A stretch of DNA of 37,804 nt from a virus, in the IMG/VR virus record IMGVR_UViG_3300035670_000631, positions 1 to 37,804 of that record. One strand, 5' to 3'. Below the pieces are notes generated by a model. The model had not been told where the DNA came from. It worked only from the letters and a program-made list of their open reading frames with translations, and did no database searches. The translations under genes and the position numbers were made by a program. This document shows, piece by piece, positions 5,364 through 34,866 of the stretch (positions within the stretch are counted from its first letter, which is position 1; the number at the start of each line of letters is the position of its first letter).

Positions 5364-8300
5364 TTACCCTTTATAACCTCTTTCTCTGTTGTGTGAATTA
5401 ACACCTTCGGCAATTGATGGAAGCATTTGATAAATTTCAGCTTTTGTTTGCCTACTAATGTCACCAGTGATATTAATATTAAAGACTTGTTGACCTTTGT
5501 TTTGAGCAATAGTTGCAGGTCCAATATTAGCCATTGCAGGTGATGCTATCATTGCAGTCGATACTAAGCCACCTTCCATGAACTTTCTAAATCTATTTCC
5601 ATTTATTGCCGTTAACAGAGCTAGATTCTTTCTAGTAGCTTGAGCGTTTACTACAAATTCACCATTAGACAACATTGCTGGAACTGAATCAGAAGTTCCT
5701 GTTCCAGGACCACTTACTTTGCCGCCTTCTGCAAATCCAAATAAACTGAAAACAGAACTAAATCCAGTTTTGAATAGACTGCTTATTCCGCTGAATAGAC
5801 TTCCAAAATCTAGATTAGTAAATAGGCCTTTAAAAGAGTCAAAGAAGCCTTTAAACGACTTTGAAAATGTTTCAAATATTCCGCCAAATGAGAATTCAGT
5901 CGGAGTTTCTTTTACTAATTGACTTGCATTCTCAGCAGTCTGTTCACCAGATTTAAATATGCCAGTTCCTAGACCTTTTAATAATGTATTTAATGGGCCT
6001 TTTTCTTGATTAGTAAATGGATCTAATAAGCCTTTTACAAATGTATCGATTACACCACTAGTAAATGTATCTAGAACTCCTCTTAAAAATTCTTTAGGTG
6101 TTGCTTTACCTTTTAGAACATTACTAAGACCACTACTAAGAGATTCACTTACACTTGATGCTAGAGATTCTCCTGCTAGAGTTGCTCTTGACTTATAATC
6201 TTTACCTTTAGTATTAATAAAGTTAGTAGAATCTGTTAATATATCATCAATAATCTTTTGCAATATATTTCTAAAAGCACCAGATGGGTCTTTAGATGGA
6301 TCTTTTTCAAACTCTTTTATTTGAGTTCTAAGAGCATTTACTTGAATTGCAGATTGCTCAACTCTATCTCTTTCTGCATTTGTTAATGCATTAAAGATAT
6401 TTTCATCAATTTGAATTCCAAGGGAAGCAATACGAGTCTTAAATCCTTCCAGATTTCTAAGACCTCTTGTTGGTGCTTCTTGAAGAATCTTATTAATATC
6501 TTTAGTAATTTCACCAAAAGATTCTTGTGCTCGTCTTCTAACATCTGATGTAACATCAACTTTCTTAATTACGTCAAATTGTTCAACTGCTTTAGATCTT
6601 AAACCTTCAATAAGGCCTAGCGTAATCTCATCTAGTGAATTAAAAGCTTCTTCAGAAATATTTATTCCGATTTTATCAAAATCAACTTTTAAGTCTTTAA
6701 ATGGAACTCTGAAAGCTTTAACAGCGTCTCTAGCTTGTGTCAAACTAGATTTACGTTCTGTTTCAATAGCTTGACGACGTTTATTTATTTCACCACCTGG
6801 CAATTTACTTGCAAGTCCGCCTTCTAACGTTCCTATTTCTAATGAATTAATTGCATTTATTTTTTGTGCAATACTAGCAGCATCTCGAAGAAGTCTCTCA
6901 CGAACTGTATCTGACATATTAGAAAGTTCTTCTAATGTTATCGTAAGTTCTGGAAATGCCTCTTGAATTAGCTTTAATTCATCACCAAAAGTTAGTTTAG
7001 TTGGTTTCTTTTCTTCAGGTTGCTCAACAAATTTACTAGGAACTTGAGCAATTCCAGCTTTTGCTAAATTATCTGCAATACTTCTGAAAACATCATTAGC
7101 TCGCTGTAAATTTTCATTACGCAAGAATTGACTGAGTCGTTTATCAGTACTATTTAAGATAGCTTTATTAGCTTCATCAATAGCACTAGCAAATTTTCTA
7201 AATTGAGCAGGATCTCTTTCTGCAAGATTCTTAATTGCTTTTAGATCTACACTTTCAAATCCTGCATTCTCTAAAGACTTTTTAGTCTCTACAAAAGCTT
7301 TATCAAGATTATTAGAACTCTCTAATAAGCTTTGAAGAGTTCCTTTTAACTCTTGTCCAGAAGGAAGTGTAGTAGAAGGTGCAGCTGGTTTATTAAAACC
7401 TAATAGACTCTTAAGACGTTCAAATATTTGAACTGCAATTTCTGTAGCACCGGTACTTGTAGTAGCTGTGCCTTCGGCATATCTACGTACTCCCATGCCA
7501 CTATTAATTGCTGTTAATATATCCCAATTCTTTCTTGCATCTTTTGCATTTACAACAAATTCACCATTAGATAATAGAGCAGGAATAGAATCTGATGTAG
7601 ATGTTCCTGGACCACTTATCCAACCACCCATTGCTCTTGGAATTGCAGAAACAGCAGGACTAGATGGAAGTGATGGCTTTTGAGCTTTTGTTTCATCAAC
7701 TAGAAAACCTGTAAGTTCAGTAACTAATTTGTAAACAAGATATGAGACTCCAGCTACAATTGCAACTTTTACTGCACCTACTGATAAAACTGCAGTAATA
7801 GCGCCCATGATTACAGCGCCTAATGTTGCTAAAGGTCCTAGAGAAGCTCTAAGATTTCCGAGATTAGACAAAACAGTTTGTCTAAACAAATCCACCTGCA
7901 TCGATATACCGGCAAGATTAGAAGCTAATCCAGCTCTAAAACTTCCTACTAGTTTATCAAATGCACCTAATTTAGCTGCAATTGCTGCAATAATTCCCGT
8001 AGTTGCTGCTATGTCTGTAACATCTTTTCTAGTTACTTCACCAACAACAGGTAAGTCTGCAACAGGTCTATTAAGATCTAATCTATTTGTTATGCCACGT
8101 TTAATATCTTGCCATAGTACTTCAAGTCTACTAACTAGACCGTCTAATATAGGGGATATCTTAGCTTTCCAAAATTCACTAAAATTATTAAATATTGACT
8201 TTAATGAATCCCAATTTAAGGCAGCAGTGATTAATGCTACTATACCTGCAGCAGCAAGTAGAAATGGGCTTGCAATAATTGCAGCAATTGGTGTAAGAGC

Positions 8301-11135
8301 AAACAAAACTGCTCTCCCAATTAGGCTACCAACTCCGGACACACCTGATACAAAAGTCTGAGCTATGATAGAACCAATTCCAGCGCCCACGGCTTGACCC
8401 GCGAACGAGATTCCAAGGGCAGTGCCTACCCGCACCCATTCGGGGCTACTGGTCATGCCTCTGGCGATCTCTGTGCCTATCTGGAGGCCCGCCAGTCCGC
8501 CCAAAATTCCGCCTGCGCCTGCACCGACATTTCGTATACCTTCTCTTAAAGAATCAGCTTGTTTCTGTAAATTTTCAGTAATAAGTCTTTCACGACGAGA
8601 TGACTCTTCTCTACTGGCTACAAGATTTCTTCTGATTTCTCTTACATTATTCAAATTAGCTTGAGAAGCAGTTAAGGCATCTTGACCACGAATACCTTCA
8701 CCAGTCCGAATTCTCGATTCTAGAGTACCAAAAGCAGATACGTTTCTAGCATTAATTGCAGCTAACGCCCTTTGCTGACCTATTAATGCACCATTAGAAT
8801 CTCTAAGTTGAGCAAGTTGATTAACTGTTTGATCAAAAGCTGTTCTATTTGAAGTAACTGCTGCTTTTAGATTATTAGGTAGTTTTGCAATTTCTTTATT
8901 TGTCTTATCAATATCTCTACGTAATAGATTACGTTCTAAAGTAGATGTAACAGCTTGTGCCGCTTTAGTTGGTGCTGTGGCAATACCTAATGCAGCTTTT
9001 GCAATAGCTTCTCTACCAGCTTGAAACAGTAAGGCTGTTTTAGCAACTGTCGATAATACACCTAAAGGATCATTTAACACACTACCAGAAAATAGGGATG
9101 TAATACCTTTTTCTACAATACTAATAAAAGTAAATGCAGCCTTGCCAAATGAAGATGAAATCGTCTTATCATCAACAACTCTAGAAGCAAAGATAGCACC
9201 TAGAGTAGTTACTACACTTAATAGGACACTTCTTACTGGACCGCCGTCAAATGCTTTAATAATTGCTAATGCAAATACACCAGTAAATGCTGCAATCAAC
9301 GGTACTTGCCATCCTGGAGGCAACATGTTTATAAAGTCATGACCGAATGGTCTATCCATTGAACTTCGATATGGACCACGACCTACTTGAGCTTCTGTAT
9401 CAATTTGAACACCAAAAACTTGACCAGGTGTTGTATCTTTAAGTCCGAATAATTGCTTAAGACTTCGACCTAATAAAGAATTATTAAAAGATTCTTCAAT
9501 TTGTTTACGAACCTTTTGTAAGCCTTCTACAGATTTTCTAGTAAGATCTTCAAGTTTATTTGTTTTCTTTACTTCTGGTTCCTGGCTTATCTCTAATGTG
9601 CCATCTTTAAAGAATTTAAAACCAGCAACTACAGCTGCTATTGCAGTAAATACACCTAAGACACTTAAGAGGATTCCTCTAAATTTATATAAGGCTGCAA
9701 CACCAGTAATAAATGGTGCCGTAATATTTATTCCACCAAATCTTAAATTGGCTTTTTCAACAAATTCGGCAATAATTGATAAAGGTTTCTTATTTAGTTT
9801 GCTAACCCATTCAGTAGTTTTCTGTACTAAATCTGGAATCCATGAATTACCAATAACTTTATCATAAAGCCAAAAGAACCAACGTTCTACTGCAATTGCC
9901 CAACCTCTTACATATTGAATTGCTAAGTCTAAACCAGGAAATATACTTCTTATATCTATTTTAGGTATATTAGCAGAAATTGTAGAAAATGCTGAAGTAA
10001 TGAATTGTCTAATAGTACTAATGAATGCCTTAGTATTATTTATGATTATTTGGCCAATATTAGTAGCTTGAAATGCTGCATATAAAGAAGTAGCAGCTGC
10101 AGTACTAGCAACAGCTACATACTTAGCCCAGCTAACAACATCTTCAGTTAACCTTACTAAAGTAGGTCTCCATTTATCATATAAAGTTCTAGTAGTTTCT
10201 TCAATTCTAACTCCAGTTTCTTTTAATGAATCCCATAGATCATTAAATAAGAGAACTGAATCAGTTACAAATAGTACTAATTTTAATTTAGCTACAGCTA
10301 GAGTAAAGCCTAGATTTGTTGCAAAGCTAAATATACTATTTGCTAAATTATTGATAGATTCTGCAAATCCACTAGTAGAGCCTAATGCAGCTTTCTTTAC
10401 CTCATCAAATAATATAACAAGAGAGTTACCTAAATTTTGAAAAGCAGCGCCATAGGTTACAGTAACTTTTGCAAAATTCTTTTCAATTTCATCTTGTTGT
10501 TTTAGAATTGCTTTAAATACATTAACAGAAGATAATTTACCTTCTTCACCTAATTGTCGTAATTTACCAATCGATACACCTAAGCCTTTAGCAATTGCTT
10601 CAGCTAATGGTGGTGCATTTTCTAAGATTGAACGTAACTCATCTCCAGCTAGTCTTCCAGATGCTAGTGCTTGACCTAACTGAATAATAGCCGCATTTGC
10701 TTCTTGTGCACCAGAACCCGATACCGCCATTGCCTTGCTTATTAATTCAGTAGCTTTAGCAATATCGCCTTGTGCTGCACCAAAATCTTTACCTGCTCTA
10801 GAAAGTCTACTATATAGACTTGCAACAGATTGAAGATCAGAACGTGTTGTGTTTGCAATTCGTCTAACTTGATCTAATGCAAATGTAAATTCTAGTTGAC
10901 TTTGAGTTGCTACTCTAAGTTTTGTCTCTAGATTAGTTAATTCATCTGAATATTTCGCAAATGTTTGAAAAGTTGCATAACCAGCAATACCTACAGAAGC
11001 TAACCTTAGAAAATTAGAGAAGCTATTAGAGACTTTATCTACACTTGATTGTATACCATTTACAGAATCTCTTAGCTTAGCTAGATCTGCTTGGGCCTGT
11101 GAAGAATCTGAAATAGTTTTCAAAACTATAGCCAT
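5364..11135 (-). CDS. Tail tape measure protein
   Basis: At 1923 residues this is the largest gene. The N-terminal region (about residues 80-240) matches the tape measure N-terminal domain (TIGR02675-like): it has SLYSRLSRAGKDFGAAQGDI and later RLAGDELRSILENAPPLAEA. Many hydrophobic helices follow at about 265-290, 475-500, 600-660 and 860-970, then long coiled-coil stretches (about 1225-1700). The pattern SGPGTSTSDSIPALLSNGEF occurs near residue 1170 and again, slightly changed, near 1805, each followed by a VVNA stretch. Tape measure length sets tail length; 1923 residues predicts a long tail of very roughly 0.28 micrometre at 1.5 angstrom per residue. The start ATG has an AAAGGG site five bases upstream. 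A short stretch at 8381-8535 has base composition unlike the rest of the gene. Confidence 0.95.
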   Translation of the reverse strand: MAIVLKTISDSSQAQADLAKLRDSVNGIQSSVDKVSNSFSNFLRLASVGIAGYATFQTFAKYSDELTNLETKLRVATQSQLEFTFALDQVRRIANTTRSDLQSVASLYSRLSRAGKDFGAAQGDIAKATELISKAMAVSGSGAQEANAAIIQLGQALASGRLAGDELRSILENAPPLAEAIAKGLGVSIGKLRQLGEEGKLSSVNVFKAILKQQDEIEKNFAKVTVTYGAAFQNLGNSLVILFDEVKKAALGSTSGFAESINNLANSIFSFATNLGFTLAVAKLKLVLFVTDSVLLFNDLWDSLKETGVRIEETTRTLYDKWRPTLVRLTEDVVSWAKYVAVASTAAATSLYAAFQATNIGQIIINNTKAFISTIRQFITSAFSTISANIPKIDIRSIFPGLDLAIQYVRGWAIAVERWFFWLYDKVIGNSWIPDLVQKTTEWVSKLNKKPLSIIAEFVEKANLRFGGINITAPFITGVAALYKFRGILLSVLGVFTAIAAVVAGFKFFKDGTLEISQEPEVKKTNKLEDLTRKSVEGLQKVRKQIEESFNNSLLGRSLKQLFGLKDTTPGQVFGVQIDTEAQVGRGPYRSSMDRPFGHDFINMLPPGWQVPLIAAFTGVFALAIIKAFDGGPVRSVLLSVVTTLGAIFASRVVDDKTISSSFGKAAFTFISIVEKGITSLFSGSVLNDPLGVLSTVAKTALLFQAGREAIAKAALGIATAPTKAAQAVTSTLERNLLRRDIDKTNKEIAKLPNNLKAAVTSNRTAFDQTVNQLAQLRDSNGALIGQQRALAAINARNVSAFGTLESRIRTGEGIRGQDALTASQANLNNVREIRRNLVASREESSRRERLITENLQKQADSLREGIRNVGAGAGGILGGLAGLQIGTEIARGMTSSPEWVRVGTALGISFAGQAVGAGIGSIIAQTFVSGVSGVGSLIGRAVLFALTPIAAIIASPFLLAAAGIVALITAALNWDSLKSIFNNFSEFWKAKISPILDGLVSRLEVLWQDIKRGITNRLDLNRPVADLPVVGEVTRKDVTDIAATTGIIAAIAAKLGAFDKLVGSFRAGLASNLAGISMQVDLFRQTVLSNLGNLRASLGPLATLGAVIMGAITAVLSVGAVKVAIVAGVSYLVYKLVTELTGFLVDETKAQKPSLPSSPAVSAIPRAMGGWISGPGTSTSDSIPALLSNGEFVVNAKDARKNWDILTAINSGMGVRRYAEGTATTSTGATEIAVQIFERLKSLLGFNKPAAPSTTLPSGQELKGTLQSLLESSNNLDKAFVETKKSLENAGFESVDLKAIKNLAERDPAQFRKFASAIDEANKAILNSTDKRLSQFLRNENLQRANDVFRSIADNLAKAGIAQVPSKFVEQPEEKKPTKLTFGDELKLIQEAFPELTITLEELSNMSDTVRERLLRDAASIAQKINAINSLEIGTLEGGLASKLPGGEINKRRQAIETERKSSLTQARDAVKAFRVPFKDLKVDFDKIGINISEEAFNSLDEITLGLIEGLRSKAVEQFDVIKKVDVTSDVRRRAQESFGEITKDINKILQEAPTRGLRNLEGFKTRIASLGIQIDENIFNALTNAERDRVEQSAIQVNALRTQIKEFEKDPSKDPSGAFRNILQKIIDDILTDSTNFINTKGKDYKSRATLAGESLASSVSESLSSGLSNVLKGKATPKEFLRGVLDTFTSGVIDTFVKGLLDPFTNQEKGPLNTLLKGLGTGIFKSGEQTAENASQLVKETPTEFSFGGIFETFSKSFKGFFDSFKGLFTNLDFGSLFSGISSLFKTGFSSVFSLFGFAEGGKVSGPGTGTSDSVPAMLSNGEFVVNAQATRKNLALLTAINGNRFRKFMEGGLVSTAMIASPAMANIGPATIAQNKGQQVFNINITGDISRQTKAEIYQMLPSIAEGVNSHNRERGYKG
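8381..8535. other. G+C-rich patch inside the tape measure gene
   Basis: By direct count, 8401-8460 is about 62% and 8461-8520 about 65% G+C, while the following 60 bases are 35%. The coding frame stays open and encodes a Gly/Ala-rich hydrophobic segment (GAGAGGILGGLAGLQIGTEI). Third codon positions are G/C-rich too, so amino acid composition alone does not explain it. A recent homologous exchange with a phage of different composition is the simplest reading. Confidence 0.7.
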
Positions 11136-14322: not shown

Positions 14323-15510
14323 TTAAGAATGGAAAATAGGCAGAATACCCAAGCTCAATGCAGAAGACGACTTACGAATCCATGTTCCTGTAGTGCTTGC
14401 AAGCGTACCAGAGGCAACGCTAGCGAGGGCTTTAGGTGTACCACCTTCGATTGCATAACGATACTCAGCATCAGATGGGAATGCTTCTTTACCACCTGCC
14501 CAATCGTAACCAGCAGGATGCATTACATAGCCCCAACGATACCAAATAGAGGTAGTACCACCGCCCTTATAGGCTGCAGCATTACGCTCAATTTCAACTT
14601 GATCAGGCACAGCTAGAGGACGCATTGCTAATGCACCAGGAAGTACGATAAAGGAGGTTTTAGTACCAACAATATCTACACCTGCACCAGTGTTAACTTT
14701 TGTCAACTCAGCAGAGGTAAAGCCTTGTGAGGCACGAGTTTGAATCAAACGAAGTTTACCTTGGAAGATAGTATTAAAATTAACATTACCATCTACAACA
14801 GTCGTTTGATCAACAAGATTTGCCGAACGAAGCGAAGCCATCATTTGAGGACTGGTGATTAGATATGCATACTCTGGCTCATAATCTTTAAATGCCATTC
14901 CCATAGCATCTAAGAAACCTTGAGCACGAGCAGCACCCTGAATAGAAGTAGTTGCATCTACAACAGCCTTAGCTGCACCAAGGTCTACATAGAAACCGTA
15001 TTTCTTATCGGTAGGATCATTATCAAAAGTTTGTCCACCAAGACCTGTTGCACCACTAGCAGCAGCAGCACCATTGAGTGCTTCGGACAGTGCAACACCC
15101 TTAAGAATAGCCAAGAGAGCATTATGCTCATCTTTAGCACGAGTTTCACCAAAATCACGACCGATTTTAGCAAGACCGTCTTGTTGAGTTACAACTTGCT
15201 GCATGTTAACTTTAGTAGCACCATGTGTACGTACTGTCTTAATGTAATTTACATAATCAGACGAATACGTAGTACCAGTACCGGCAGTAGAGTCGGTAAG
15301 AGATGCAACGTTAACAGTAGGATTCAAAGGCTTAAACCAACGAACCTGACCACTAAAGGTTTCAGTGTTAGTATCAATATTAGGATTATCGCCAACAATA
15401 CCAGTGCTAGTAAGTTTACGTTCACTAGTATATGCTTCATCCGAGTACGCACTCAGAGCTTCTTGCAGAACAAAGTTGTCGGCACCTGCAAGGTTAGTTT
15501 TAACAGTCAT
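14323..15510 (-). CDS. Major capsid protein
   Basis: 395 residues with a strong AAGGA site before the ATG. It follows the scaffold gene and precedes the neck genes. The N-terminus (NFVLQEALSAYSDEAYTSER), a beta-rich middle (FSGQVRWFKPLNPTVNVASL), a long helix (GDFGETRAKDEHNALLAILK-like region) and a C-terminal segment with IWYRWGYVMHPAGYDWAGG match phage coat proteins with the HK97 fold. The same coat family occurs in many environmental siphoviruses. It is the least AT-rich of the head genes, fitting strong expression. No cleavage site or protease gene is visible, so assembly probably uses the separate scaffold. Confidence 0.85.
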   Translation of the reverse strand: MTVKTNLAGADNFVLQEALSAYSDEAYTSERKLTSTGIVGDNPNIDTNTETFSGQVRWFKPLNPTVNVASLTDSTAGTGTTYSSDYVNYIKTVRTHGATKVNMQQVVTQQDGLAKIGRDFGETRAKDEHNALLAILKGVALSEALNGAAAASGATGLGGQTFDNDPTDKKYGFYVDLGAAKAVVDATTSIQGAARAQGFLDAMGMAFKDYEPEYAYLITSPQMMASLRSANLVDQTTVVDGNVNFNTIFQGKLRLIQTRASQGFTSAELTKVNTGAGVDIVGTKTSFIVLPGALAMRPLAVPDQVEIERNAAAYKGGGTTSIWYRWGYVMHPAGYDWAGGKEAFPSDAEYRYAIEGGTPKALASVASGTLASTTGTWIRKSSSALSLGILPIFHS

Positions 15511-15521
15511 TTAAATTCCTT

Positions 15522-16211
15522 TTATCTCTTAGGAGGAAGTTTGCCTTCCCTAGCTAATTTTAAGACATCATCTTGCGACATGCTAAAGAGCGATTTCTTG
15601 CTATTATCACCAGATGAACTATTAGATTGAGTTGTCGTAGTTCCAGCACCAGAAGATACTTTTGGTTTCAACAAAAATGAATTAGAATCTTGTTCTGTAA
15701 ATTGTTTGACAAAGTCTTTTACAGAGATTCCTGATTTGTGTACCCAAACACCTTGTTCATTTTGAATAAGTTGTGCTACAATTTCACGATACGCCATATC
15801 TATTGCAGTATCATTCCTAAAATCATAGCCAGAGAGCGAATTACGTAACTCTAGATCTCGCGTAAGTTCAATAGTACGCCGTTCTAGAGTCTCTCTTTTG
15901 GCACGTTCTTCAGATAGTTGAAGTTCTAAAGCTTCCTTCTCTTTACCCTCTTTCTTAAGTTGTTCAAGTTCACGTTCTTTCTGTTTTTGCTCGATATCTG
16001 CAAGCTTTCGCATCGCTTCATCACGAGCACCGTAAGCACTATCAAGTTTAGTTTTGATATCCTTAACAGCTTCAGAGACACGTTCTTTTACTAACTTTTC
16101 AACAGGGTCTTCATTAGTCTGCTGATTATTTTGATTACTATTATTTTGATTCTTATCAGAATCTTGATTAGTATTATCAGTATCAGCGTTATTGGTGTTA
16201 GAATCAGACAT
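15522..16211 (-). CDS. Capsid scaffold protein
   Basis: I chose the ATG at 16211 (229 residues, MSDSNTNNADTDNTNQ), which has AAGGAAA upstream. An earlier in-frame ATG at 16256 would add 15 residues not typical of the family. The N-terminal 45 residues are almost only Asp, Asn, Gln and Ser. A long charged coiled coil follows (residues about 50-115: Lys/Glu rich, KQKERELEQLKKEGKEKEAL), then a C-terminal basic tail ending PPKR. This is the classic layout of GP20-like phage scaffolds, where the coiled coil dimerises and the basic end binds coat protein. Confidence 0.85.
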   Translation of the reverse strand: MSDSNTNNADTDNTNQDSDKNQNNSNQNNQQTNEDPVEKLVKERVSEAVKDIKTKLDSAYGARDEAMRKLADIEQKQKERELEQLKKEGKEKEALELQLSEERAKRETLERRTIELTRDLELRNSLSGYDFRNDTAIDMAYREIVAQLIQNEQGVWVHKSGISVKDFVKQFTEQDSNSFLLKPKVSSGAGTTTTQSNSSSGDNSKKSLFSMSQDDVLKLAREGKLPPKR

Positions 16212-16274
16212 TTTAAAATTTCCTTTTGAGTACAACTCATTAAAATAAAGATACAATCTTTATTATAAAATAGT

Positions 16275-16300: not shown

Positions 16301-16318
16301 GGGTTAATTTAACGGGTT
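16301..16318 (-). promoter_or_regulatory. 18-nt palindromic box, copy 1 (candidate phage promoter/operator)
   Basis: The plus strand reads gggttaatttaacgggtt, identical over 18 bases to 34845-34862. The core GTTAA-T-TTAAC is a perfect inverted repeat. Both copies lie within six bases downstream of a stop codon, with a hairpin on their far side, and precede a block of late genes. A role as promoter, operator or part of a terminator cannot be told from sequence alone. Confidence 0.6.
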
Positions 16319-16321: not shown

Positions 16322-19300
16322 CTAACCTACTCCGTACCATCCGAAATCATTTGAAAAACCTTTAGGGATTTCTCTAAGAATGTCAGACTTGTTCAGAATA
16401 TCTTTTTCTGTGAGTATTTTACCACCCACTCTTGACCTACCAGGAATTGGTATTAGGCCTGTTTCAATAGCTTCTTCAAGATATTTATCATATAATTCTT
16501 TAGGTAGACCTCTCGCACGCATCTCATCTAGTGTCATTTTGATTACATTCTTATTTAAAACTTCAGCATAACTCTCTCTTAGAGCCTGCCTAGCTTTTAA
16601 CATGTCAGCAGCATTAGTAAAGAAAGCATCATGTATAGTAGACGTTGGAACTTTATTCTTTCGTCCCCATAAATGGAACTTCTTTACAATTACAGCATCA
16701 TTTGAATGATTACCATTAACTGCAAAGGCAGTTCTAGCTCTTGTAAGATCTGCAATATCATTAATTTTACCTGATTTATTTATTACCTGTTCCCACCAAG
16801 ATGCTTCAGTCTTTTGAGGCACTTGTAAAATATTTGTAGTCCAATTACCAAATTTATCCTTATATACCAATCTTTCTTCAATAGTTTGCGTAAAGTTCTG
16901 TTCAATAATCTTTCCATCAAAATTTACCCAAGGTACGTTAGTCCAGCTTTTTGGTAATTTGTTTGCATAAAAGACTTCTAATTCATTTAGTGTCTTTAAC
17001 TGTAAAAAGTCTACTTTAAGATATTTAGCACCAGTTCGCCTGACATCTGGAGCTTCTACCCCATAAACAATTTGACTTAGAGTCCCATTAGGTTTCCAGA
17101 AACCAAATCTCTTTAAAAGTTTCTCACTCAGAGGTTCACCTGCTTTAACACCTAATAGCTGGCTTACATTATCTGAGAGTACATAACCTTTCTTTTTACT
17201 TCCAACTAATGTAGTTTTTGCAATTGTTTTCCAATCGAAGTCAGCATTAGATGGTTTAGCATTAGCTAGATAGTCTTCCGCTAATCTACCAAAGTATCTA
17301 GTAAATCCTTTTAGAATAGGTACTTGTTCTGCAAGATACTCACTCATAATTTGAGCGATTGCTTTAAAGTCATTTGGTGTCACAATCTTTTCATAAGATG
17401 TTGACAACTTTTCAACAAGATCTCTAGTTTTAGGATCAAGAAAATACAGCTGCTCTAGTATTTCATCACCAGGGTCTAATCCTTTGTTAAATATATCTCT
17501 AACATTTTGACGTAAATCTCTTAGTTCTTCAGCAGTTTCAGGATCAAATTTCTCATATCGTGCAATTCTAGCACTTATTTCATTCAAGACTTTATCTCTA
17601 TCAGCTGCCTTTACAACTAATGTGTTTACATCTTTTTCTAGAACTTTAGATAATTTACCTTCTACATTCAGACCACTAGTACGTTCTCCAGCACCATAGA
17701 ATGTAACCATATTCTGAGCTTTAGAAGCTTTTCTTAAATCTTTCTCATTTAGACCTAATCTTTCATTTAGCTTTCTAAACCTAGGATCATTATACGTTAA
17801 AGCTGCAATTTCATCGTATAATCTTTTCTTTTGACTAGTAGGTACGACATTGCTTAATTCAGCAAGTTGTTTATTCCTAGTAGTTAATGCAATAATTTGA
17901 GCACCAGATGAGGAAGCATCCTGCTCTAATGCAAGAGAAATATCATAATTATTAAGCTTTTCAAGTGATTTAGCAGAATAATTACCTTCTAGATAATTAT
18001 CAATTTTAGCAATTTCTAATGCAAATCTAAAGAATTTATTTAATTCTTCACCATCTACTCTAGAAACAAAATCAGATTCTAATATAGCTCTAATATCATT
18101 AGGTTTACCTCTTAGCATATGATTACCTACTCTTATTAATTCTGGTCTCCATTTCTCGGCAACTTTTTGTCTGCCAGTAAATGATAAAGAATTAAATCTG
18201 CCTTCAAAGTAATCATTTAATCCACCAAGAAAAGCTCCTATTTGATCTTGTAAATTTCTAAAGTCATCAGGACTAAATTTCTTAACTTCTTCTGTGTTCA
18301 AAAATGGTCTAAAAGCTTCACCTGATTGAGGACTAATTAGACCACGATCATAAATACGAGCACGATGATCAATGAATGGATGATTGCTAAAAGACTTACC
18401 AGAAGCTCTTAACCATTCCATTGCCTTAAATCGCTCATATGTATCTCCTCGAGATGCCATATATTTACGATATTCGTTCAAGTCATTATACTTCTTAGCA
18501 TTACCTCTGTCGTCTTCAAAGTATAGTAATTTTCGTACAAAGTCGAAATAATCCTGATCTATTTTATATTTTGCCTTAGATGCCCAATTTAAAGCATCTA
18601 TAAATTCTTTGTCGACAAATTCTTCTGGAAAATCGCTAAAACTACTAGTAGATGTAATTGGTATTCTAGTATCTTCATATCCTAAAATTCCACGATCAAT
18701 AAAGTAGGTTTTATAACCTTCTCTGAAAACAAGTCTATTCTTATCTTCAGTTACACTAATTCTTAGTCCTAGATCTATTTTTCTATTAAGTTGAGCATAT
18801 TCTTGAATTCTTGGGTCTACAACTCGAATATTATAAGACAGTGTATCATAATAAGGTCCAAAGTAAGCTGAACTTAACTTACTTTTCATTCGCCTCTTTT
18901 GAACACCAAATGTTTCAACTTCAAAGAATTTCTTTACATTCTTAGATTCTAGTAAAGATAATCCAAGATCATACCATTTTCTCTTATAACCATTTAAATT
19001 TGCTAAGTTATAGAGATCTCTTCCTAATGCAATAGCGAATTGATCTCTGTCTGGAGAATCCGCTAAACTTAATCTATGCGCAAATCTTAGATAGAATTGT
19101 TGTAAATCTCTATCAGAAATTCTATTTTTAATAACTAGAGGTATTTTATAATCAAATACATTCCTTAGTTCATTAGCAATCTTAGGTGCAACTTTATCTT
19201 CCCATCTATTTCGTTTTAAGATATTATCTATAAACTTATCATGTAAATCTTGTAATTGTACTGGACCTAATACTGGATCAATATAATTATCTTGTAAGAT

Positions 19301-20950
19301 TTTCTTTAAGATGTCAGAGTCTCTTCGAATCTGAGTCTCAATAGCATCTGATACATTCATTACATCAAACTTAATTTGACTCTGAATAATTGCTTTCAGA
19401 TTAACCCATACGTCTGGATTGTCTCGATATCTTCCAAAAATTATTCTTAAATTATCTGCAATTACTGCTCTTTCATTAACACTCATTCTTTCAGCTAGAT
19501 TATCTACAAAGTTTTTAATAAATTCTTTATCTCTATCTAAAAGCTTAGTACTCTCATCAATAAGTCTTATGTTATTGGTTAATACTGATGGATTTGGTTG
19601 ATACAGTCTAACATCTTCATATCGACCTGTTATTGGATTAAACTTTAGCTGATCTTCTCTAGGAGGAGTAGATAAAACGCGATTCTTTACAGATCGCTTA
19701 ACACCCATTAGAGTGCCTCTATAGTTAGTTAGAGACAAATTACCACTAAGATCTCCAGCCTGTAATAGATAATAGTCAAGTAAGGTTTGTCTTAATTGTT
19801 TGTCATTAATTAGGTCATCAGGAGTATTTGCGCCTAATTGCATTGCATCTAGTTTTTCTTTAGCTAATGCAAATTTCCTTGTGTCATTTGGTAGCGTATA
19901 TCCACTATCTGTCATTGCTCTAAGTTCTTTTATACCTAAAGAATTACCTTCATCATTAGTGAACTTACTTAATTCTAGTTGGCCAGATCTAAATAACTCA
20001 ACTTTTTGATAATCTCCAATATGACGTAATTGTACACTTTTATCTTGTCTTAACAACCAAGAATTATAGGTCTCTCGCATAGGCGTTTGACCATCATAGA
20101 ATTGAATATCCTTATCACTAAGATTTGAGATATTCCTACGCCGTATTTGTGCAACACCTTCTAATTTACTCATATCTTCCCATGATTTGAATACAGGAAT
20201 TGTAGTAGATCTACAATGAAAATGAGCTGGTGGCAAATGTCGTGTGTCATCTATTGGATATATTTTACCATCTCTATGAGCACAGAGTGGAGTTGTCCTA
20301 GAGTCTAACACAGCAACATATTGCCAACCTTGGATAGCTTTTTCATTTGCTTTATATACTGCATGATCCGTTTGAGCTGTTACAGAAGTTATTGCAGTTA
20401 CTACTAATGCCTTTGATTGCATACGACTAATACTATGAATATTGCCTCGTCTTACATCTAAAGCAATTTCATCTACAGTTTTATTTTCTGCAATTCCTTT
20501 TCTAATTAAGGCTTCAATACGTCTCTTCTCATTAGAACTTATACCTGCCCAACCAGCAGCTAAAGTTTGATTAGAATGTAATGGTTTTTCAAGTACAATT
20601 TCTTCAGCTACTCTTTTAGGAGGTCTTTCAGCACGCCAAATCTTACCTAATGCAGATTCTACATTTTGGTATGTAAATGAGATTTGATCAGAAACAAGAT
20701 CTAATAAAGATCTTTTACTGATATTGAATGCTTCTTTATATGTTCGCTGAAGTTCCTGATCAATGGCTTCCTGTAATCTATTAAAGCCTTTAGTTGAAAG
20801 ATTTGCATCTTTGATAAGTTTATCTACTCGGACGGTATGACCATCAATAACTAATTCAATCTTACCATTGACACGTCTCTCGTAGAGCCTTATCATTGCA
20901 GCTCTATCTATTGCTTTGTCATAAATTTGTGTATTAGCGTTGATGGACAT
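16322..20950 (-). CDS. MuF minor head protein fused to T7/N4-type single-subunit RNA polymerase
   Basis: The start is most likely the ATG at 20950, with AGGTGAG five bases upstream (1542 residues). An in-frame GTG at 20959 adds three. Positions below count from that GTG. Residues about 140-260 are a MuF domain ending in LCAHRDGKIYP (225-235) and HLPPAHFHCRST (241-252), the usual Cys/His signature. The rest carries single-subunit RNA polymerase motifs in order: DHRARIYDRG at 864 (DxxGR, Gly replaced by Ala), motif A LEQDASSSGAQ with Asp1014, motif B R1076-x3-K1080-x7-Y1088-G, HSND at 1418, and motif C IHDAF with Asp1444. Asp1014/Asp1444 correspond to T7 Asp537/Asp812 and Lys1080/Tyr1088 to Lys631/Tyr639. 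About 180 extra residues lie between motifs B and C relative to T7. The gene sits between portal and scaffold, the usual MuF place, so the polymerase is probably packaged. Residues 260-860 show no motif I recognise. Confidence 0.88.
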   Translation of the reverse strand: MSINANTQIYDKAIDRAAMIRLYERRVNGKIELVIDGHTVRVDKLIKDANLSTKGFNRLQEAIDQELQRTYKEAFNISKRSLLDLVSDQISFTYQNVESALGKIWRAERPPKRVAEEIVLEKPLHSNQTLAAGWAGISSNEKRRIEALIRKGIAENKTVDEIALDVRRGNIHSISRMQSKALVVTAITSVTAQTDHAVYKANEKAIQGWQYVAVLDSRTTPLCAHRDGKIYPIDDTRHLPPAHFHCRSTTIPVFKSWEDMSKLEGVAQIRRRNISNLSDKDIQFYDGQTPMRETYNSWLLRQDKSVQLRHIGDYQKVELFRSGQLELSKFTNDEGNSLGIKELRAMTDSGYTLPNDTRKFALAKEKLDAMQLGANTPDDLINDKQLRQTLLDYYLLQAGDLSGNLSLTNYRGTLMGVKRSVKNRVLSTPPREDQLKFNPITGRYEDVRLYQPNPSVLTNNIRLIDESTKLLDRDKEFIKNFVDNLAERMSVNERAVIADNLRIIFGRYRDNPDVWVNLKAIIQSQIKFDVMNVSDAIETQIRRDSDILKKILQDNYIDPVLGPVQLQDLHDKFIDNILKRNRWEDKVAPKIANELRNVFDYKIPLVIKNRISDRDLQQFYLRFAHRLSLADSPDRDQFAIALGRDLYNLANLNGYKRKWYDLGLSLLESKNVKKFFEVETFGVQKRRMKSKLSSAYFGPYYDTLSYNIRVVDPRIQEYAQLNRKIDLGLRISVTEDKNRLVFREGYKTYFIDRGILGYEDTRIPITSTSSFSDFPEEFVDKEFIDALNWASKAKYKIDQDYFDFVRKLLYFEDDRGNAKKYNDLNEYRKYMASRGDTYERFKAMEWLRASGKSFSNHPFIDHRARIYDRGLISPQSGEAFRPFLNTEEVKKFSPDDFRNLQDQIGAFLGGLNDYFEGRFNSLSFTGRQKVAEKWRPELIRVGNHMLRGKPNDIRAILESDFVSRVDGEELNKFFRFALEIAKIDNYLEGNYSAKSLEKLNNYDISLALEQDASSSGAQIIALTTRNKQLAELSNVVPTSQKKRLYDEIAALTYNDPRFRKLNERLGLNEKDLRKASKAQNMVTFYGAGERTSGLNVEGKLSKVLEKDVNTLVVKAADRDKVLNEISARIARYEKFDPETAEELRDLRQNVRDIFNKGLDPGDEILEQLYFLDPKTRDLVEKLSTSYEKIVTPNDFKAIAQIMSEYLAEQVPILKGFTRYFGRLAEDYLANAKPSNADFDWKTIAKTTLVGSKKKGYVLSDNVSQLLGVKAGEPLSEKLLKRFGFWKPNGTLSQIVYGVEAPDVRRTGAKYLKVDFLQLKTLNELEVFYANKLPKSWTNVPWVNFDGKIIEQNFTQTIEERLVYKDKFGNWTTNILQVPQKTEASWWEQVINKSGKINDIADLTRARTAFAVNGNHSNDAVIVKKFHLWGRKNKVPTSTIHDAFFTNAADMLKARQALRESYAEVLNKNVIKMTLDEMRARGLPKELYDKYLEEAIETGLIPIPGRSRVGGKILTEKDILNKSDILREIPKGFSNDFGWYGVG

Positions 20951-20959
20951 AAATCTCAC

Positions 20960-21249: not shown

Positions 21250-22833
21250 TTAGAGCTTGGTGTTTTCTTCATCTGCAATTCTCCTAGCAAAGTCTGAATT
21301 ATCAGGTTTACTAATTAAACTTTCATCAGCAGTTATCTCTTGTTTACCTTCTTCATCATCATAATCTGGAGGAACCATATCATTTAGCTTTAGCATCATA
21401 ATCCAAACAGAGCGTGGTATTAACCCTTCCTTATACCATTCTGTTGCAAGCCTTAACCAATCAGCACCTAAAGGTGTTGGATTAAAGTCTTGTGATAAAC
21501 TAAAATGAATATCAGATGCTTTAAGATCAGTATTGTATCGCCAATTAAGCATAAATGCAATTATTTGAGACATAGTTGCACTTACTTTATTATTTAAAGT
21601 ACCTAATTGAGCTGTTTGTGCAGCATTTCTAATCTCAAGTGCAATACCAGATTGAGCAGTTTCAGGCGTTAACATTCTTATGCCAAGTTTAGCCATTTCT
21701 TCAATAGATGCAGCAATAGCTCTATCCATATCTTGTAAAGCAGCTGTAGGCGTTTCTAATACCTTGGCATCATCTCCTTGTCTAAGTCTTATCCAAGTTC
21801 CTAGACCACCTTCGACAATTTGTTCAAATTCGTCATCACTTATATCTGAGATAATGATTGGTGTATAGGTAGATGCACCATATAATAAGTGATTTCTTCG
21901 GCTTAGTTTATTGTATAAACTAATTTCTTTATCAATGATAGGAGACAACATAGGTTCAATTGCATCAATGGACCCATTTAATGGCCATGCAGGAATCATT
22001 TTAAGACGTTGGCCATTTGACATTATATTAGTAATTTCTTCTTTTAAGTCAAATGTAAGTTTATTTTCAGAAGGCTTCTTAATTTGTTGACCTGAAACTA
22101 CTTCTACTTTTGTTGCATTAGCAGACGCTTGATACATTCTTATTCGATAGTAGCCTAAATCATCGAGATCGTGCACCCATACAGTATCTTTAAATACTGG
22201 ATGAAATTCATTGGATGCTTCATATTCTTCTTTAAAGCCTCTAACGATGACTCGTGTTAAAATTGTCTTGCCAAACCTATCTTCAGATATTTTCCAATTT
22301 ATTACAGATTCGGCTTTTTGTAAAATTGGATAGGGTTTAAAGGTTTGTTGCTCTTGCTTAGTTAATGCTTCTGGATTATTAATCTTAGGATAATCAACAA
22401 AGACCCAAGCTCTACTTGTTTGAACTTCTTCCCATAAGACTGAATCTAGAAAAGATGTTAATGAACTGTCATCTTTACCAAACTCATTCATTATCCAATT
22501 AAAGGCATCAGACACATAATTTTCAGGTAGTTGTAAAATTGGAGCTTTTCTTAATAGTCCACCTACAATCATCTTACAAAATTGAGCAACAATTCCAGGT
22601 AATTCCGCTTCAGCTTTATAGAAATTATACTGCTTTTGAGTCATTGAAGGAGAGAATGGAATTAGTAAGTTATTGAAGTTAATAACATCAATAGCTCCGT
22701 CAAAATCTTTGACGTAACGCTCCCCGCTACATACTGCTCTGCTTTTATTCCAGAGAGGCTTTAATGACTCATAAGACGCATTAGGATCTCCTACAGTTTT
22801 AACTGAAGCCTGGGCAGCGTTTACTACAGTCAT
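21250..22833 (-). CDS. Portal protein, DUF4055 type
   Basis: 527 residues with AAGGGG before the ATG. The N-terminal pattern YESLKPLWNKSRAVCSGERY, then PFSPSMTQKQYNFYKAEAEL and IVAQFCKMIVGGLLRKAP, is characteristic of the DUF4055 portal family. A long C-terminal helix region (DRAIAASIEEMAKLGIRML) and an acidic tail follow. The portal forms the dodecameric DNA gate at one capsid vertex. It is separated from the large terminase by about 8.4 kb of fibre genes, which is unusual, but it is followed normally by the MuF head protein. Confidence 0.88.
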   Translation of the reverse strand: MTVVNAAQASVKTVGDPNASYESLKPLWNKSRAVCSGERYVKDFDGAIDVINFNNLLIPFSPSMTQKQYNFYKAEAELPGIVAQFCKMIVGGLLRKAPILQLPENYVSDAFNWIMNEFGKDDSSLTSFLDSVLWEEVQTSRAWVFVDYPKINNPEALTKQEQQTFKPYPILQKAESVINWKISEDRFGKTILTRVIVRGFKEEYEASNEFHPVFKDTVWVHDLDDLGYYRIRMYQASANATKVEVVSGQQIKKPSENKLTFDLKEEITNIMSNGQRLKMIPAWPLNGSIDAIEPMLSPIIDKEISLYNKLSRRNHLLYGASTYTPIIISDISDDEFEQIVEGGLGTWIRLRQGDDAKVLETPTAALQDMDRAIAASIEEMAKLGIRMLTPETAQSGIALEIRNAAQTAQLGTLNNKVSATMSQIIAFMLNWRYNTDLKASDIHFSLSQDFNPTPLGADWLRLATEWYKEGLIPRSVWIMMLKLNDMVPPDYDDEEGKQEITADESLISKPDNSDFARRIADEENTKL

Positions 22834-28537: not shown

Positions 28538-28556
28538 AATAGTCCTCTCAGTTAAA

Positions 28557-29009
28557 TTAGGCTACAGTAATCTTCCAGGTGATCGTGAGAGTATCTAACG
28601 CACCTTTGTTAATAACATCAAACTTTGTACGACATAACATAGTTCCACTAGATGAGGCATTGAAAATACCTGCTTCAGTGATAGCAGCGGTAGCTACGCC
28701 AGGACTAAATGTAGCGACATATTGAATCGAATCATTAGCAACTGTTGTAGTGACAATAGTTGTAGAATCTAGTGCAACACGAGCTGATTCGGTTCCGAGT
28801 GCTGTTTGAGCATCTGCAGCTGCTGCAGTTCCAGTGCCTACTGCCATATGTGACATAGCGGTTGCAGTGGTATCTTTCATTCGGCTAGCAATATATGCTA
28901 AACCAACATCAACTACTAGGTTATGATCATGTTGCTCTTTGACATTTCCATTAGCGTCAGTAAGAACAAACTTAACTAAACCAGTAGCCTTAATTTTATC
29001 TTTCAACAT
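28557..29009 (-). CDS. Virion-associated beta protein (fibre/decoration)
   Basis: 150 residues preceded by GAGG eight bases before the ATG. It starts with KFVLTDANGNVKEQHDHNLV and has a central MAVGTGTAAAADAQTALGTE segment. The C-terminal part is AAITEAGIFNASSSGTMLCR, then INKGALDTLTITWKITVA. This order is widespread among small phage structural proteins next to fibres, where it is predicted to form a beta-sandwich knob. Located between two fibre genes, it is probably part of the fibre or baseplate periphery. Confidence 0.65.
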   Translation of the reverse strand: MLKDKIKATGLVKFVLTDANGNVKEQHDHNLVVDVGLAYIASRMKDTTATAMSHMAVGTGTAAAADAQTALGTESARVALDSTTIVTTTVANDSIQYVATFSPGVATAAITEAGIFNASSSGTMLCRTKFDVINKGALDTLTITWKITVA

Positions 29010-29019
29010 TTCTTTAACC

Positions 29020-30585: not shown

Positions 30586-30598
30586 GATTACCTCCTAA

Positions 30599-31225: not shown

Positions 31226-31238
31226 TATGACTCACTTT

Positions 31239-32585
31239 CTAGAAATTAAAACCTCGTTGGACACGTTTTGTGCCTGATTGCACAGGGAATAGATATTCTA
31301 TTCCATACCTAATACCATCAGAATAATGCTCAATGCCTTCAGATTTATCTATAGTTGCCGTATCTGAATTATTATCAACCCATCTGGTTCGCTCTAGTGA
31401 TGTAATTACACCAGTACAACGAGGATGAATGTACATATCAATATCACCTGCAGCATTTTGCAGCTTCTTATTAACTGCAGCAACTGAATCGATAATCGGA
31501 GGAGCTTTGGGATGAGCCAGACAGCGAATGCCATGAGACTCTAATATAGAGAAATCAGTACGACCAACAGGAGCAGAAGATTTACGTGCTCTACCTGATG
31601 GATCAGGATAAGCAAAAATCCTATGTCCTTGATACTTAGTTTTAAGTGCAATAGCTAGTGTTTCAGTATCAGGATGGCCTTTAAATTCATCTAATATATG
31701 AACTTGCTTACCTCTAATTGCCATAGCAGAGCTACATTGAAGACCGACGTTAAAGTCAATATTGATATGAACATCCTCACCTTTATCACCATCTGATGGT
31801 GGTGTAAAGTATGGTAGATCTGAAGATATATTCTTCTTCCTATCAAAGCAATAAAATACAGAATTACCTGATTCTTTAAATAATGCTAAATACTCAGATG
31901 CAAATTCAATAGGATCAATGTTTCTTTTAATCCTTTCAATCTCATCAACATCAAGAAATGGAGATGTTTTATAGTCAAAATGATAAGACTTCCAATCACG
32001 ATCGCTACTCTCATAAGTATGCATTTCGTGAAAGTAATTAAAACCTTTTGGTGTACTAATAATCAAGCCACGTCCTGGAGATCTAGCTTTAAAGGTTGCT
32101 GCTCTTTTCTTGGACCAACGAGTAATGATGGTAGGTTGGATGACTCCTTCCCAAGCTTCCTTTGGACTAATACCTCTTTTGCATGAGGATACTTCATCCC
32201 ACACAACAAAATAGGCACCTTTACCACGCATTCTTTCAACGGCTTCATAAGATAATAACCTAAGTTCTACATTGTAAGGAAATATAAATCTACCAAGATC
32301 TCTTGAAGATTTAATTGCGTACCTATCCATACCTAAGTCATAATTAATTAAAGGATAGTAAATGTCAGTAACTTGATCATAAGTGGGTGCAATTATATAC
32401 ACTACTTTATTTGGCACTGTTGGTGCTAACTCTAATAATTCAAATATAGCTGTGCAAGCGGTTGCTCCTGCCATAAAAGACTTACCCCAACCACGGCTAC
32501 AACAAACGACAGCAAATCTAGCTGCTTGATGTACAAACAAATCCTCAAATACTTCTGATTGACCTTCATGGAGGTTAATAGACAT
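31239..32585 (-). CDS. terL: Terminase large subunit
   Basis: 448 residues. The ATPase part has a Walker A-type SRGWGKSF (30-37), Walker B FVVWDE (126-131) and coupling motif LIISTPKGF (174-182). The nuclease part (residues about 270-448) has Asp277 in INIDFNVG, Glu300 in ILDEF and Asp423 in HYSDGIRYGI as likely metal ligands. It cuts concatemeric DNA and drives it into the prohead through the portal. It follows the putative small terminase with a two-base gap. The normal next gene, the portal, is displaced by a fibre block. Confidence 0.95.
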   Translation of the reverse strand: MSINLHEGQSEVFEDLFVHQAARFAVVCCSRGWGKSFMAGATACTAIFELLELAPTVPNKVVYIIAPTYDQVTDIYYPLINYDLGMDRYAIKSSRDLGRFIFPYNVELRLLSYEAVERMRGKGAYFVVWDEVSSCKRGISPKEAWEGVIQPTIITRWSKKRAATFKARSPGRGLIISTPKGFNYFHEMHTYESSDRDWKSYHFDYKTSPFLDVDEIERIKRNIDPIEFASEYLALFKESGNSVFYCFDRKKNISSDLPYFTPPSDGDKGEDVHINIDFNVGLQCSSAMAIRGKQVHILDEFKGHPDTETLAIALKTKYQGHRIFAYPDPSGRARKSSAPVGRTDFSILESHGIRCLAHPKAPPIIDSVAAVNKKLQNAAGDIDMYIHPRCTGVITSLERTRWVDNNSDTATIDKSEGIEHYSDGIRYGIEYLFPVQSGTKRVQRGFNF

Positions 32586-32587
32586 AT

Positions 32588-33031
32588 TTAGTCCTCATCA
32601 TGATCATTATCATCTATCTCGTCTTGTTCATTGACGACATAGGTTTCACCTTTCTTAGTTAAATTAATAACAAGTGGTGTTGGTTTAGCATCATTGAGTT
32701 CGCTAACTTCAGGAACTCTGCCATATCCATATCTCAAAAGTTTTTCACCAATCATATTTAGCTTATCAAATAAAGCATGATGAACTTCAGAGCGATATGA
32801 CCTAGGCTTTCCACTGGCACTTAATTCAATGATTTGACCATCTCGAATTTTCTCTTGACGCTCAACTTCTAATTGAATCTTTCTATAATTCTCTACAAGT
32901 TCTTGTATTGGGTCAAACCTAAGTTGACGTAGTCTTGCAGCAGATCTTTTGCTACCAACATAATAAGAAGGCACAGCTAATCGCTTATTAGGCGGCTGTA
33001 CAGGTACAGGCATATTTCGTTGTTCACTCAT
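32588..33031 (-). CDS. Putative terminase small subunit
   Basis: 147 residues directly before the large terminase. The N-terminus is Pro-rich and basic (VGSKRSAARLRQLRFDPIQE). A coiled coil follows (ENYRKIQLEVERQEKIRDGQ), then HHALFDKLNMIGEKLLRYGY, and the C-terminus is acidic (DEIDDNDHDED). The helical oligomerisation core and acidic tail fit small terminases, which recognise packaging sites, but the helix-turn-helix is not obvious. The call rests mainly on position. Confidence 0.6.
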   Translation of the reverse strand: MSEQRNMPVPVQPPNKRLAVPSYYVGSKRSAARLRQLRFDPIQELVENYRKIQLEVERQEKIRDGQIIELSASGKPRSYRSEVHHALFDKLNMIGEKLLRYGYGRVPEVSELNDAKPTPLVINLTKKGETYVVNEQDEIDDNDHDED

Positions 33032-33052
33032 TGGTGTTCTCTATTAGTTAAT

Positions 33053-34449: not shown

Positions 34450-34866
34450 AACAACTCCTGTATAGAAACTAAGTACTACAATAAAATTACACCAAGAATT
34501 CTAAATCATGAAGTTACATTTTCCTCTTAGCCTCTAAAAGACGTCTTATTTGCTATACTATTTTAACATTCTTTAAGATACATACTTTAATGAATATCTT
34601 AATTAATATCATTACATTTAAATACTATATTAATCTAAAATCATTATATTTAAGTTTTAGTATCATCATACTTAAAGACTATCTTAGTTTAGTAGTTTAG
34701 TTTAATAGATTTATTAATCATAATATATCCTTTAATAACTTCCTATAATAACATCTTTAAATAATATCATTATAATATTTTATTAAATAAATCTACTACT
34801 AATCTAAGACGTCCTTATAAGTGTCTCTCAGGGAGAACGTCCTAGGGTTAATTTAACGGGTTCGTT
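34450..34866. other. AT-rich non-coding region before the late operon
   Basis: About 417 bases with no plausible gene; every frame is broken by stops. It carries the 18-nt box (34845-34862), an imperfect hairpin at 34821-34840, and the degenerate repeats atcattacattta (34608) and atcattatattta (34640) plus a weaker copy near 34766. Related aagacgtc/agacgtcc segments lie at 34538 and 34806. No clear sigma-70 promoter stands out. It probably serves as regulatory leader, perhaps also a replication or packaging site. Confidence 0.55.
34845..34862 (-). promoter_or_regulatory. 18-nt palindromic box, copy 2 (candidate phage promoter/operator)
   Basis: Identical to 16301-16318 and placed four bases after the stop codon of the zincin gene, upstream of the cyclase-terminase operon. 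On its transcription-downstream side a short hairpin (GTTCTC/GAGAAC with one bulged base) follows, as at copy 1. Shared arrangement at two operon heads argues for a regulatory role. Confidence 0.6.

Follow-up and report, generated by a model that had tools for sequence, protein, structure and literature searches.

A MuF minor head protein fused to a T7-like RNA polymerase, a probable virion RNA polymerase of siphoviruses

Why would a phage join a minor head protein and an RNA polymerase (RNAP) in one chain? The question is raised by a gene on the minus strand of the IMG/VR virus record IMGVR_UViG_3300035670_000631, whose 37,804 bases are the window, that is, the whole stretch of DNA that was analysed. 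An earlier reading, made from the letters alone (the sequence-only reading), had proposed that a single open frame couples a MuF-type head domain to a complete-looking single-subunit polymerase, which a siphovirus would inject with its genome. Here we confirm that a single protein consists of a MuF minor head module, a middle region of no recognised fold and a T7-like single-subunit RNA polymerase. We further consider it likely that the fusion is a virion RNA polymerase with the MuF head domain as its packaging tag, a proposal in which packaging, injection, activity and promoter use are all inferred.

The frame is free of stops over 1545 codons from GTG 20959, or 1542 from ATG 20950, down to 16322, and encodes a protein of 178 kDa. 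Its single frame had been recognised earlier, and the minus strand is added here. Residues are counted from GTG 20959; the ATG is codon 4, so ATG-based numbers are 3 lower. Alignments to most homologs start at residues 3-7, and the ATG at 20950 coincides with the end coordinate of the earlier description. The gene sits between the portal gene and the scaffold and major head genes, as is the case for genes of MuF minor head proteins (Table 1). A match to Phage_Mu_F (PF04233) covers residues 148-254 with an E of 3.8e-13 and 50.6 bits, against a curated cut-off of 29.6, and the PHROGs head morphogenesis family phrog_241 covers residues 3-349 (E 1e-62). The fusion protein is the sole MuF match in the window record and in a 70-kb record of the same phage. 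AlphaFold gave a weak model for residues 1-601 (pLDDT 74, pTM 0.50), and the MuF assignment rests on sequence.

In the polymerase half, RNA_pol (PF00940) was matched above its curated cut-off (E 7.5e-13), and PHROGs returned the RNA polymerase family phrog_414 (E 2.2e-21) and phrog_2051 (E 6.7e-12), whereas the N4-like RNAP family phrog_2166 reached only E 0.016. By sequence profile, T7 RNAP was reached in the PDB at no better than E 0.01. Residues 352-1545 were modelled by AlphaFold with 51 sequences at a mean pLDDT of 83.6 and a pTM of 0.78, and the best 50 PDB matches of this model in Foldseek were mitochondrial and T7 RNA polymerases (E 3.6e-18 to 3e-15). VIA-align placed residues 221-1194 of the model (572-1545 of the protein) on residues 38-883 of T7 RNAP with a Z of 27.5 and an rmsd of 3.5 A over 524 residues at 18% identity. 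The palm/fingers-type polymerase fold on which the sequence-only reading had staked its claim was thus found in the prediction, in which the last 974 residues resemble a complete T7-like enzyme that includes part of the T7 N-terminal domain. Of the two enzymes named in the "T7/N4-type" label of that reading, T7 is by structure the nearer, as the N4 mini-virion RNAP (mini-vRNAP) is less close to the same model (Z 18.0).

Conservation was read from 111 aligned sequences of at least 1430 residues, the window protein and some twice-fetched contigs included, which were reduced to 55 at less than 95% identity. D864, R866, R868, D1014, K1080, Y1088, G1089, H1418 and D1421 are invariant (55/55), N1420 is found in 54 and R1076 in 50 of the 55, and H1443 and D1444 of motif C are present in all 54 sequences that extend that far. 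The core motifs listed in the sequence-only reading are all at their places, namely DHRAR 864-868, D1014, R1076-x3-K1080-x7-Y1088-G1089, HSND 1418-1421 and D1444, as is the MuF-type head domain, in which Cys226, Cys249, Pro244 and Arg250 occur in 55/55. The low identity to T7 RNAP in the structural alignment (18%) might suggest that the polymerase part has a structural role and no catalytic activity; however, its catalytic residues remain invariant in relatives down to about 30% identity, and we give this idea almost no credence.

The fusion is not confined to one record. A scan of viral contigs with the fusion protein found 169 stretches encoding relatives, the best 80 of which were kept for analysis. 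The metagenome search proposed with the sequence-only reading was answered by at least 576 IMG/VR stretches encoding relatives, found with an alignment of 34 sequences (A1), the best 80 of at least 576 being kept; two other alignments, A2 (51 sequences, the window and 50 of 53 found) and A3 (49 sequences), were like A1 picked for diversity. Since the same fusion was met again in contigs from many samples and in the DSS3_VP1 and DSS3_PM1 records, the junction is not an assembly artefact, a doubt that had been raised from the start. Five of 50,697 phage records matched the polymerase part (572-1545). Four of these belong to EBPR siphovirus 1 (65% identity), DSS3_VP1 (two records) and DSS3_PM1 (33%); the fifth, a weak match, is a Pelagibacter phage RNA polymerase (E 3e-3). 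In the first three phages the fusion is annotated only as "head protein", "minor head protein-like protein" or "head morphogenesis", and its second exon in EBPR siphovirus 1 as "hypothetical protein".

Several relatives carry interruptions in the polymerase part. Group I introns above the Rfam cut-off lie at motif B in three loci (L072, L075, L083) and between NG and NHSND in a fourth (L058), as would be expected of an essential, conserved active site. In EBPR siphovirus 1 (L001) the gene is also split at motif B, where an HNH gene is annotated, and no intron match above the Rfam cut-off was obtained. In one record (G041) the fusion gene was matched in six pieces. An in-frame insert of 233 residues occurs at 1109-1113 of the polymerase in L077-L080 and L082; an intein was considered and dropped, as its start is unlike an intein by eye and the copy scanned (L078) had no Pfam match at 0.01. 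Another large in-frame insert was seen near residue 992 in G019, G020, G021, G026, G030 and G038. A prophage or host link was likewise not supported, as a scan of genome contigs matched 77 stretches with two relatives among them, both in one metagenome-assembled bin; the longer contig equals in length the viral contig L039 and is probably a binned phage.

Table 1. Features of the window discussed in the text (residues counted from GTG 20959)
Feature	Position	Strand	Evidence or remark
MuF-RNA polymerase fusion gene	16322..20950	-	ATG start; single uninterrupted frame
Head module, residues 3-349	19913..20953	-	phrog_241
MuF domain PF04233, residues 148-254	20198-20518	-	Pfam
Region 350-571	19247..19912	-	without family match or confident structural match
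T7-like single-subunit RNA polymerase, residues 572-1545	16325..19246	-	AlphaFold and T7 RNAP structural match
DHRAR, residues 864-868	18356..18370	-	D864, R866, R868 in 55/55
Motif A, Asp1014	17918..17920	-	55/55
Motif B, R1076..K1080..Y1088-G1089	17693..17734	-	conserved; group I intron site in relatives
HSND, residues 1418-1421	16697..16708	-	conserved
Motif C, H1443-D1444	16628..16633	-	54/54 where present
Motif 1 CCCGTTAAATTAACCC, exact	16301..16316	-	directly behind fusion stop; candidate promoter of the second RNA polymerase (RNAP2)
Motif 1, second exact copy	34845..34860	-	ahead of cyclase and terminase genes
Portal protein	21250..22833	-	phrog_145, E 3.5e-58
Head scaffolding protein	15522..16256	-	phrog_206, E 2.6e-10
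Major head protein	14323..15510	-	phrog_247, E 2.2e-20
Tail tape measure protein	5364..11135	-	PF20155, E 1.5e-60
Terminase large subunit	31239..32585	-	phrog_2, E 2.2e-29

A record of 70,092 bases (G001) belongs to the same phage, as the window matches its two ends with positions 1-27496 at 99.99% and 27485-37804 at 100%, so that window and record are one circular map of about 70 kb cut at different points. In this record 94 of the 96 predicted genes are on one strand, and a stand-alone, T7-like RNAP of 761 residues is encoded at 37025-39310 (RNA_pol E 1.1e-63), followed by DNA polymerase A, primase-helicase and other replication genes. When RNA_pol was sought in the fusion records above 55 kb among the 80 kept loci, a second RNAP gene (RNAP2) was present in 16/16, G001 included; in G005 and G016 it is part of a longer frame whose match has a gap, and in G008 it is split over two frames. 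In DSS3_VP1, too, an RNA polymerase gene is annotated in addition to the fusion. The sequences of the two polymerases are very distant from each other (profile comparison over 240 columns, probability 6.9%, E 0.005), which does not support a recent gene duplication as the origin of both. In G001, G002, G003, G006 and G010, visual inspection shows a hairpin and T run resembling a terminator before the small gene preceding RNAP2, and the expression of RNAP2 may depend on read-through past it.

With the portal and scaffold genes as neighbours of its gene in the structural block, the polymerase could also be a late-made enzyme acting in the producing cell, which MuF tethers during assembly and which is of no use in the next infection. 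The relatives tested, however, already own a second RNAP, and a polymerase destined for proheads would gain nothing from a MuF tag unless it were delivered. We regard such a late role as very improbable, and delivery in the virion remains the reading we prefer.

Word counts in intergenic stretches gave two promoter-like motifs, motif 1 (CCCGTTAAATTAACCC) and motif 2 (GTATCTTATATGA). These were counted on the genomes in which they were found, the looks outside being IMG/VR scans and DSS3_VP1 only. The 26 genomes comprise 15 picked by the fusion and 11 picked by motif 2, and the frequency of motif 2 is claimed for the 15 only; G012, a near-copy of G003, was left out of the exact-copy counts and of the upstream-box count, which gives 14 fusion-selected genomes, while G005, G009 and G046 were read to base 80000 only and G013 was left out. 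Exact copies of motif 2 number 33 on the coding strand and none on the other, and occur in 13 of the 14 fusion-selected genomes; for motif 1 the figures are 38 and none, in 10 of the 14. With 300 shuffled cores, motif 2 gave a mean of 0.02 (maximum 1), and motif 1 gave 0. At no more than one mismatch, motif 2 was found on the coding strand of all 15 fusion-selected genomes (39 sites), and in 13 of these a copy lies 1.2-5.2 kb upstream of the RNAP2 gene.

Motif 2 is preceded by a box with GCG at -12 to -10 (34, 36 and 37 of 37 sites), then A-rich bases, so that the full motif reads GCG-N9-GTATCTTATATGA, and its core is unchanged across genomes of 35-63% GC. Folding of the 34 bases that start at its GATA is more stable than that of shuffles (mean z -1.70, 68% below -1), compared with -0.19 and 22% upstream of the motif and -0.32 and 25% at random places, in a test that pools all 26 genomes, which are related in sequence. 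The hairpin, which varies in sequence and comes after the conserved 13-mer, would be the 5' end of transcripts from motif 2.

A copy of motif 1 follows the fusion closely: it comes 7-12 bases after the last matched codon in 9 of the 15 fusion-selected genomes and no more than 820 bases after it in 13, ahead of the scaffold and capsid genes. Shuffles of the window gave a mean of 0.02 matches to motif 1 at up to two mismatches. No motif 2 occurs in the window; its three copies are in the part of the genome absent from it. The two motifs were also seen in tandem 70 bases apart, at 54262 and 54332 in G001 and at 63340 and 63410 in G002, an arrangement in which one set of small genes might have both an early and a middle promoter. 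The stretch AATTAACCCT inside motif 1 resembles the T3 promoter; the bases that follow are not conserved, and the likeness is not relied on.

Motif 2 could, however, be a host promoter of the sigma-70 type, since its TATGAT is one base off the sigma-70 -10 consensus and often lies 16 bp from a TTGCGS box. The host RNAP would then transcribe the early genes and RNAP2, as in T7, and the virion polymerase would have another task, such as pulling in the genome by transcription or boosting the first transcripts. Yet the invariant part is the whole of GTATCTTATATGA, spacer included, and its upstream box is GCG in nearly every site rather than TTGACA. The constancy of the core over so wide a range of GC content also argues against a sigma-70 promoter, as does the hairpin, whose first base is the G of GATA and thus falls within what would be the -10 box. 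We judge a host promoter unlikely. It might also be proposed that both motifs are sites for a regulator and not promoters of phage polymerases, as motif 1 holds the near-palindrome GTTAANTTAAC, the centre of which differs among copies. Against this, the exact copies of both motifs all have one orientation relative to the genes and most copies are intergenic, and one genome (G024) swaps motif 1 for a shared variant, as polymerase-promoter pairs do; regulator sites are thus quite improbable, and we continue to treat the motifs as candidate promoters of the two phage enzymes.

The link between motif 2 and the fusion was looked at from the outside. An IMG/VR scan with GCGN9GTATCTTATATGAWA alone gave 91 stretches, and its mirror image gave 1. 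Among the matches listed (80 of 91), known fusion records were left out and 50 of the 64 remaining records were searched, 24 of which match the fusion protein or part of it, most of the others being fragments. Above 60 kb, 15 of the 16 records searched match the fusion in whole or in part; the remaining one, of 124 kb, has no RNA_pol at all. RNA_pol is present in 30 of the 31 that reach 33 kb or more. The fusion of DSS3_VP1 is 31-33% identical to the others, and a fresh motif search in this phage gave GCATCTATAATGA three times on one strand, two of the copies 6.2-6.6 kb ahead of its RNA polymerase gene; the candidate counterparts of motif 2 stand at 35809, 36256 and 67793 of DSS3_VP1. The likeness of this element to motif 2 (9/13) is suggestive only and could be chance among candidates. 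A second class, an element with nine matches and 3 in the background, shares CGTTAAA with motif 1. In EBPR siphovirus 1 we found variants of motif 1 (ACCGTTAYWTTAACCC), one of them behind the fusion gene.

Which enzyme reads which motif may be judged from the genomes in which a motif has changed. All 26 genomes, 11 of them picked for it, share the core of motif 2, and among the 25 genomes compared the fusion is well conserved in the stretch ahead of HSND. Motif 1 varies more. G024 has CGTTAAATTAATGA in its place (6 matches at up to two mismatches, 4 of them exact, with 2 background matches), G005 has the variant GCTGTTAWATTAACCC, and G044 has mostly GTTAWCTTAATG, with 3 variant matches (two GTTAACTTAATG and one GTTATCTTAATG) against 1 in the background, and keeps one copy of motif 1 with 2 mismatches. 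G010 is the sole genome of the 26 in which no form of motif 1 was found. Its RNAP2 is the most diverged of 20 unsplit ones (median identity 51%, the next being 53%; the 6 of 26 RNAP2 genes that are split were left out), and its segment from FPV to HSLDA counts 55 residues against 67-68 in the other 25, that is, 12-13 fewer. This segment corresponds to the place of the specificity hairpin in T7. Since G010, without a recognised motif 1, has a shortened RNAP2 segment, an ordinary fusion (62-72% identity) and an ordinary motif 2, this one informative genome favours, without proving, the assignment of motif 1 to RNAP2 and of motif 2 to the fusion.

Within the window, the siphovirus setting suggested by the sequence-only reading was also recovered, as portal, scaffold, major head and terminase genes, together with a PF20155 tape measure gene and a distal tail protein found with PHROGs, make up a siphovirus head-tail block. 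Near the terminase gene, at 33053-34273 on the minus strand, a protein of 406 residues has an adenylate/guanylate cyclase catalytic domain (PF00211, E 2.4e-9), possibly making it a phage-encoded producer of cyclic nucleotides.

Taken as a virion RNA polymerase, the fusion would work as follows. The MuF module would take the protein to the portal and the prohead interior, as SPP1 gp7 suggests; the protein would travel out of the head together with the DNA, probably in an unfolded state, and would refold in the cytoplasm. Its T7-like domain, recognised by motifs and predicted fold, would start transcription at motif 2, giving transcripts that would open with a short hairpin. The early genes so transcribed would include that of the second T7-like RNAP, whose presence and position are observed, and RNAP2 would in turn read motif 1, which stands ahead of the replication, lysis and head gene blocks. 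The phage would thus not need the host RNAP for its first genes. Delivery in the virion gains support because RNAP2 is present in 16/16 long relatives, a candidate early promoter lies upstream of it in 13/15 and the architecture is widely conserved.

A number of observations weigh against this proposal. A siphovirus tail would have to pass a protein of 178 kDa, which is a demand, and the weak model of residues 1-601 had no PDB match at E of 0.001 or better in Foldseek. Besides the likeness of motif 2 to a sigma-70 box, which the host RNAP could read, four one-mismatch copies of motif 2 lie on the opposite strand, spread over 4 of the 15 genomes picked by the fusion. Two of the genomes fit poorly, G007 with a single copy, at one mismatch and 6.5 kb from RNAP2, and G008 with one copy away from RNAP2. 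DSS3_VP1 has neither motif 1 nor motif 2 as such, and no motif 2 was found in the 45 kb of EBPR siphovirus 1 examined. The folding test on the 26 pooled genomes gave no hairpin enrichment behind motif 1 (mean z -0.16, 25% below -1) and so did not support the hairpins seen there by eye in several copies. Finally, the motif 1 of G024 changed without an obvious change in the loop of RNAP2.

Virion-borne RNA polymerases are already known. N4 (Schitoviridae) carries a single-subunit RNAP, gp50, in its virion, which transcribes the early genes, parts of a second phage RNAP included (PMC12633501, PMC4496689). Our system would share the single-subunit virion enzyme and the second phage RNAP among the early genes, with virion carriage here inferred. 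The N4 enzyme, however, is a giant of about 3,500 residues whose polymerase occupies the middle third, flanked by N- and C-terminal domains; it belongs to a podovirus and uses DNA-hairpin promoters, whereas the fusion has 1,545 residues with a C-terminal polymerase nearer T7 in predicted fold, and a MuF head domain, in a siphovirus. The puzzle of tail passage has also been stated for N4, for a protein of 3,500 residues and a tail of 30-45 A (PMC12633501). The sequence-only reading had offered N4, with its stand-alone giant, as the known precedent; this is not the sole one, as the RNAP of P23-45 is fused to the tape measure protein. This two-barrel virion RNAP, gp96, is described as transcribing pre-early genes, among them the gene of the second RNAP, gp64, and distinct DNA motifs are given for the virion and non-virion enzymes (PMC10770324). 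Both are long-tailed phages with an RNAP fused to a structural protein and a second RNAP, although the enzyme of P23-45 is of the cellular two-barrel type on the tape measure, while here a T7-type predicted fold is joined to a head protein and the tape measure is a separate gene. The fusion polymerase also differs from T7 RNAP, which it resembles in predicted fold, in motifs A, B and C and in DxxxR. T7 RNAP is made in the infected cell by the host RNAP and is not carried in the virion, and in our phage a stand-alone T7-like RNAP exists as well.

MuF proteins offer the other half of the comparison. In SPP1, gp7 attaches to the portal protein and enters the procapsid in a small number of copies, and delivery on infection has been proposed for toxins joined to gp7-like proteins (PMC6316719). 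In MuF fusions more broadly, an N-terminal MuF module is followed by a C-terminal enzyme thought to be delivered on infection, and the passages on such fusions do not describe a pair of MuF and RNA polymerase (PMC5512222, PMC6316719). Those fusions bear toxin or host-modifying cargo, whereas here the cargo would be a polymerase for the phage DNA. Among the matches listed, titles and abstract starts of the open-access literature describe no MuF-RNAP fusion, and the words "RNA polymerase" are absent from the main text of the EBPR siphovirus 1 paper (PMC3097231). Within the open-access literature compared, delivery of a T7-type enzyme by MuF would therefore be a new form of virion-borne polymerase. 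We lean, with some reserve, towards a lineage recurrent in IMG/VR that uses MuF as the vehicle for a T7-type RNAP in a host-independent relay of two promoter codes, motif 2 for the injected enzyme and motif 1 for RNAP2, with an origin of the virion-borne polymerase separate from those in N4, P23-45, phiKZ and the crAss-like phages.

If this is true, phages would have a separate and compact route for bringing their own transcription machine, in siphoviruses and past a long tail. Deoxyuridine-substituted DNA is reported for DSS3_VP1 (MN602266) and DSS3_PM1 (MN602267) (PMC12697855), and one may speculate that this unusual DNA is linked to a self-carried polymerase. These two named phages, roseophages of the laboratory strain Ruegeria pomeroyi DSS-3, carry the fusion, and the two candidate polymerase-promoter pairs come with sequences ready for testing. 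The MuF domain would be the carrier of a working enzyme that serves the phage genome, suggesting that MuF might be used as a tag for packaging proteins into phage heads.

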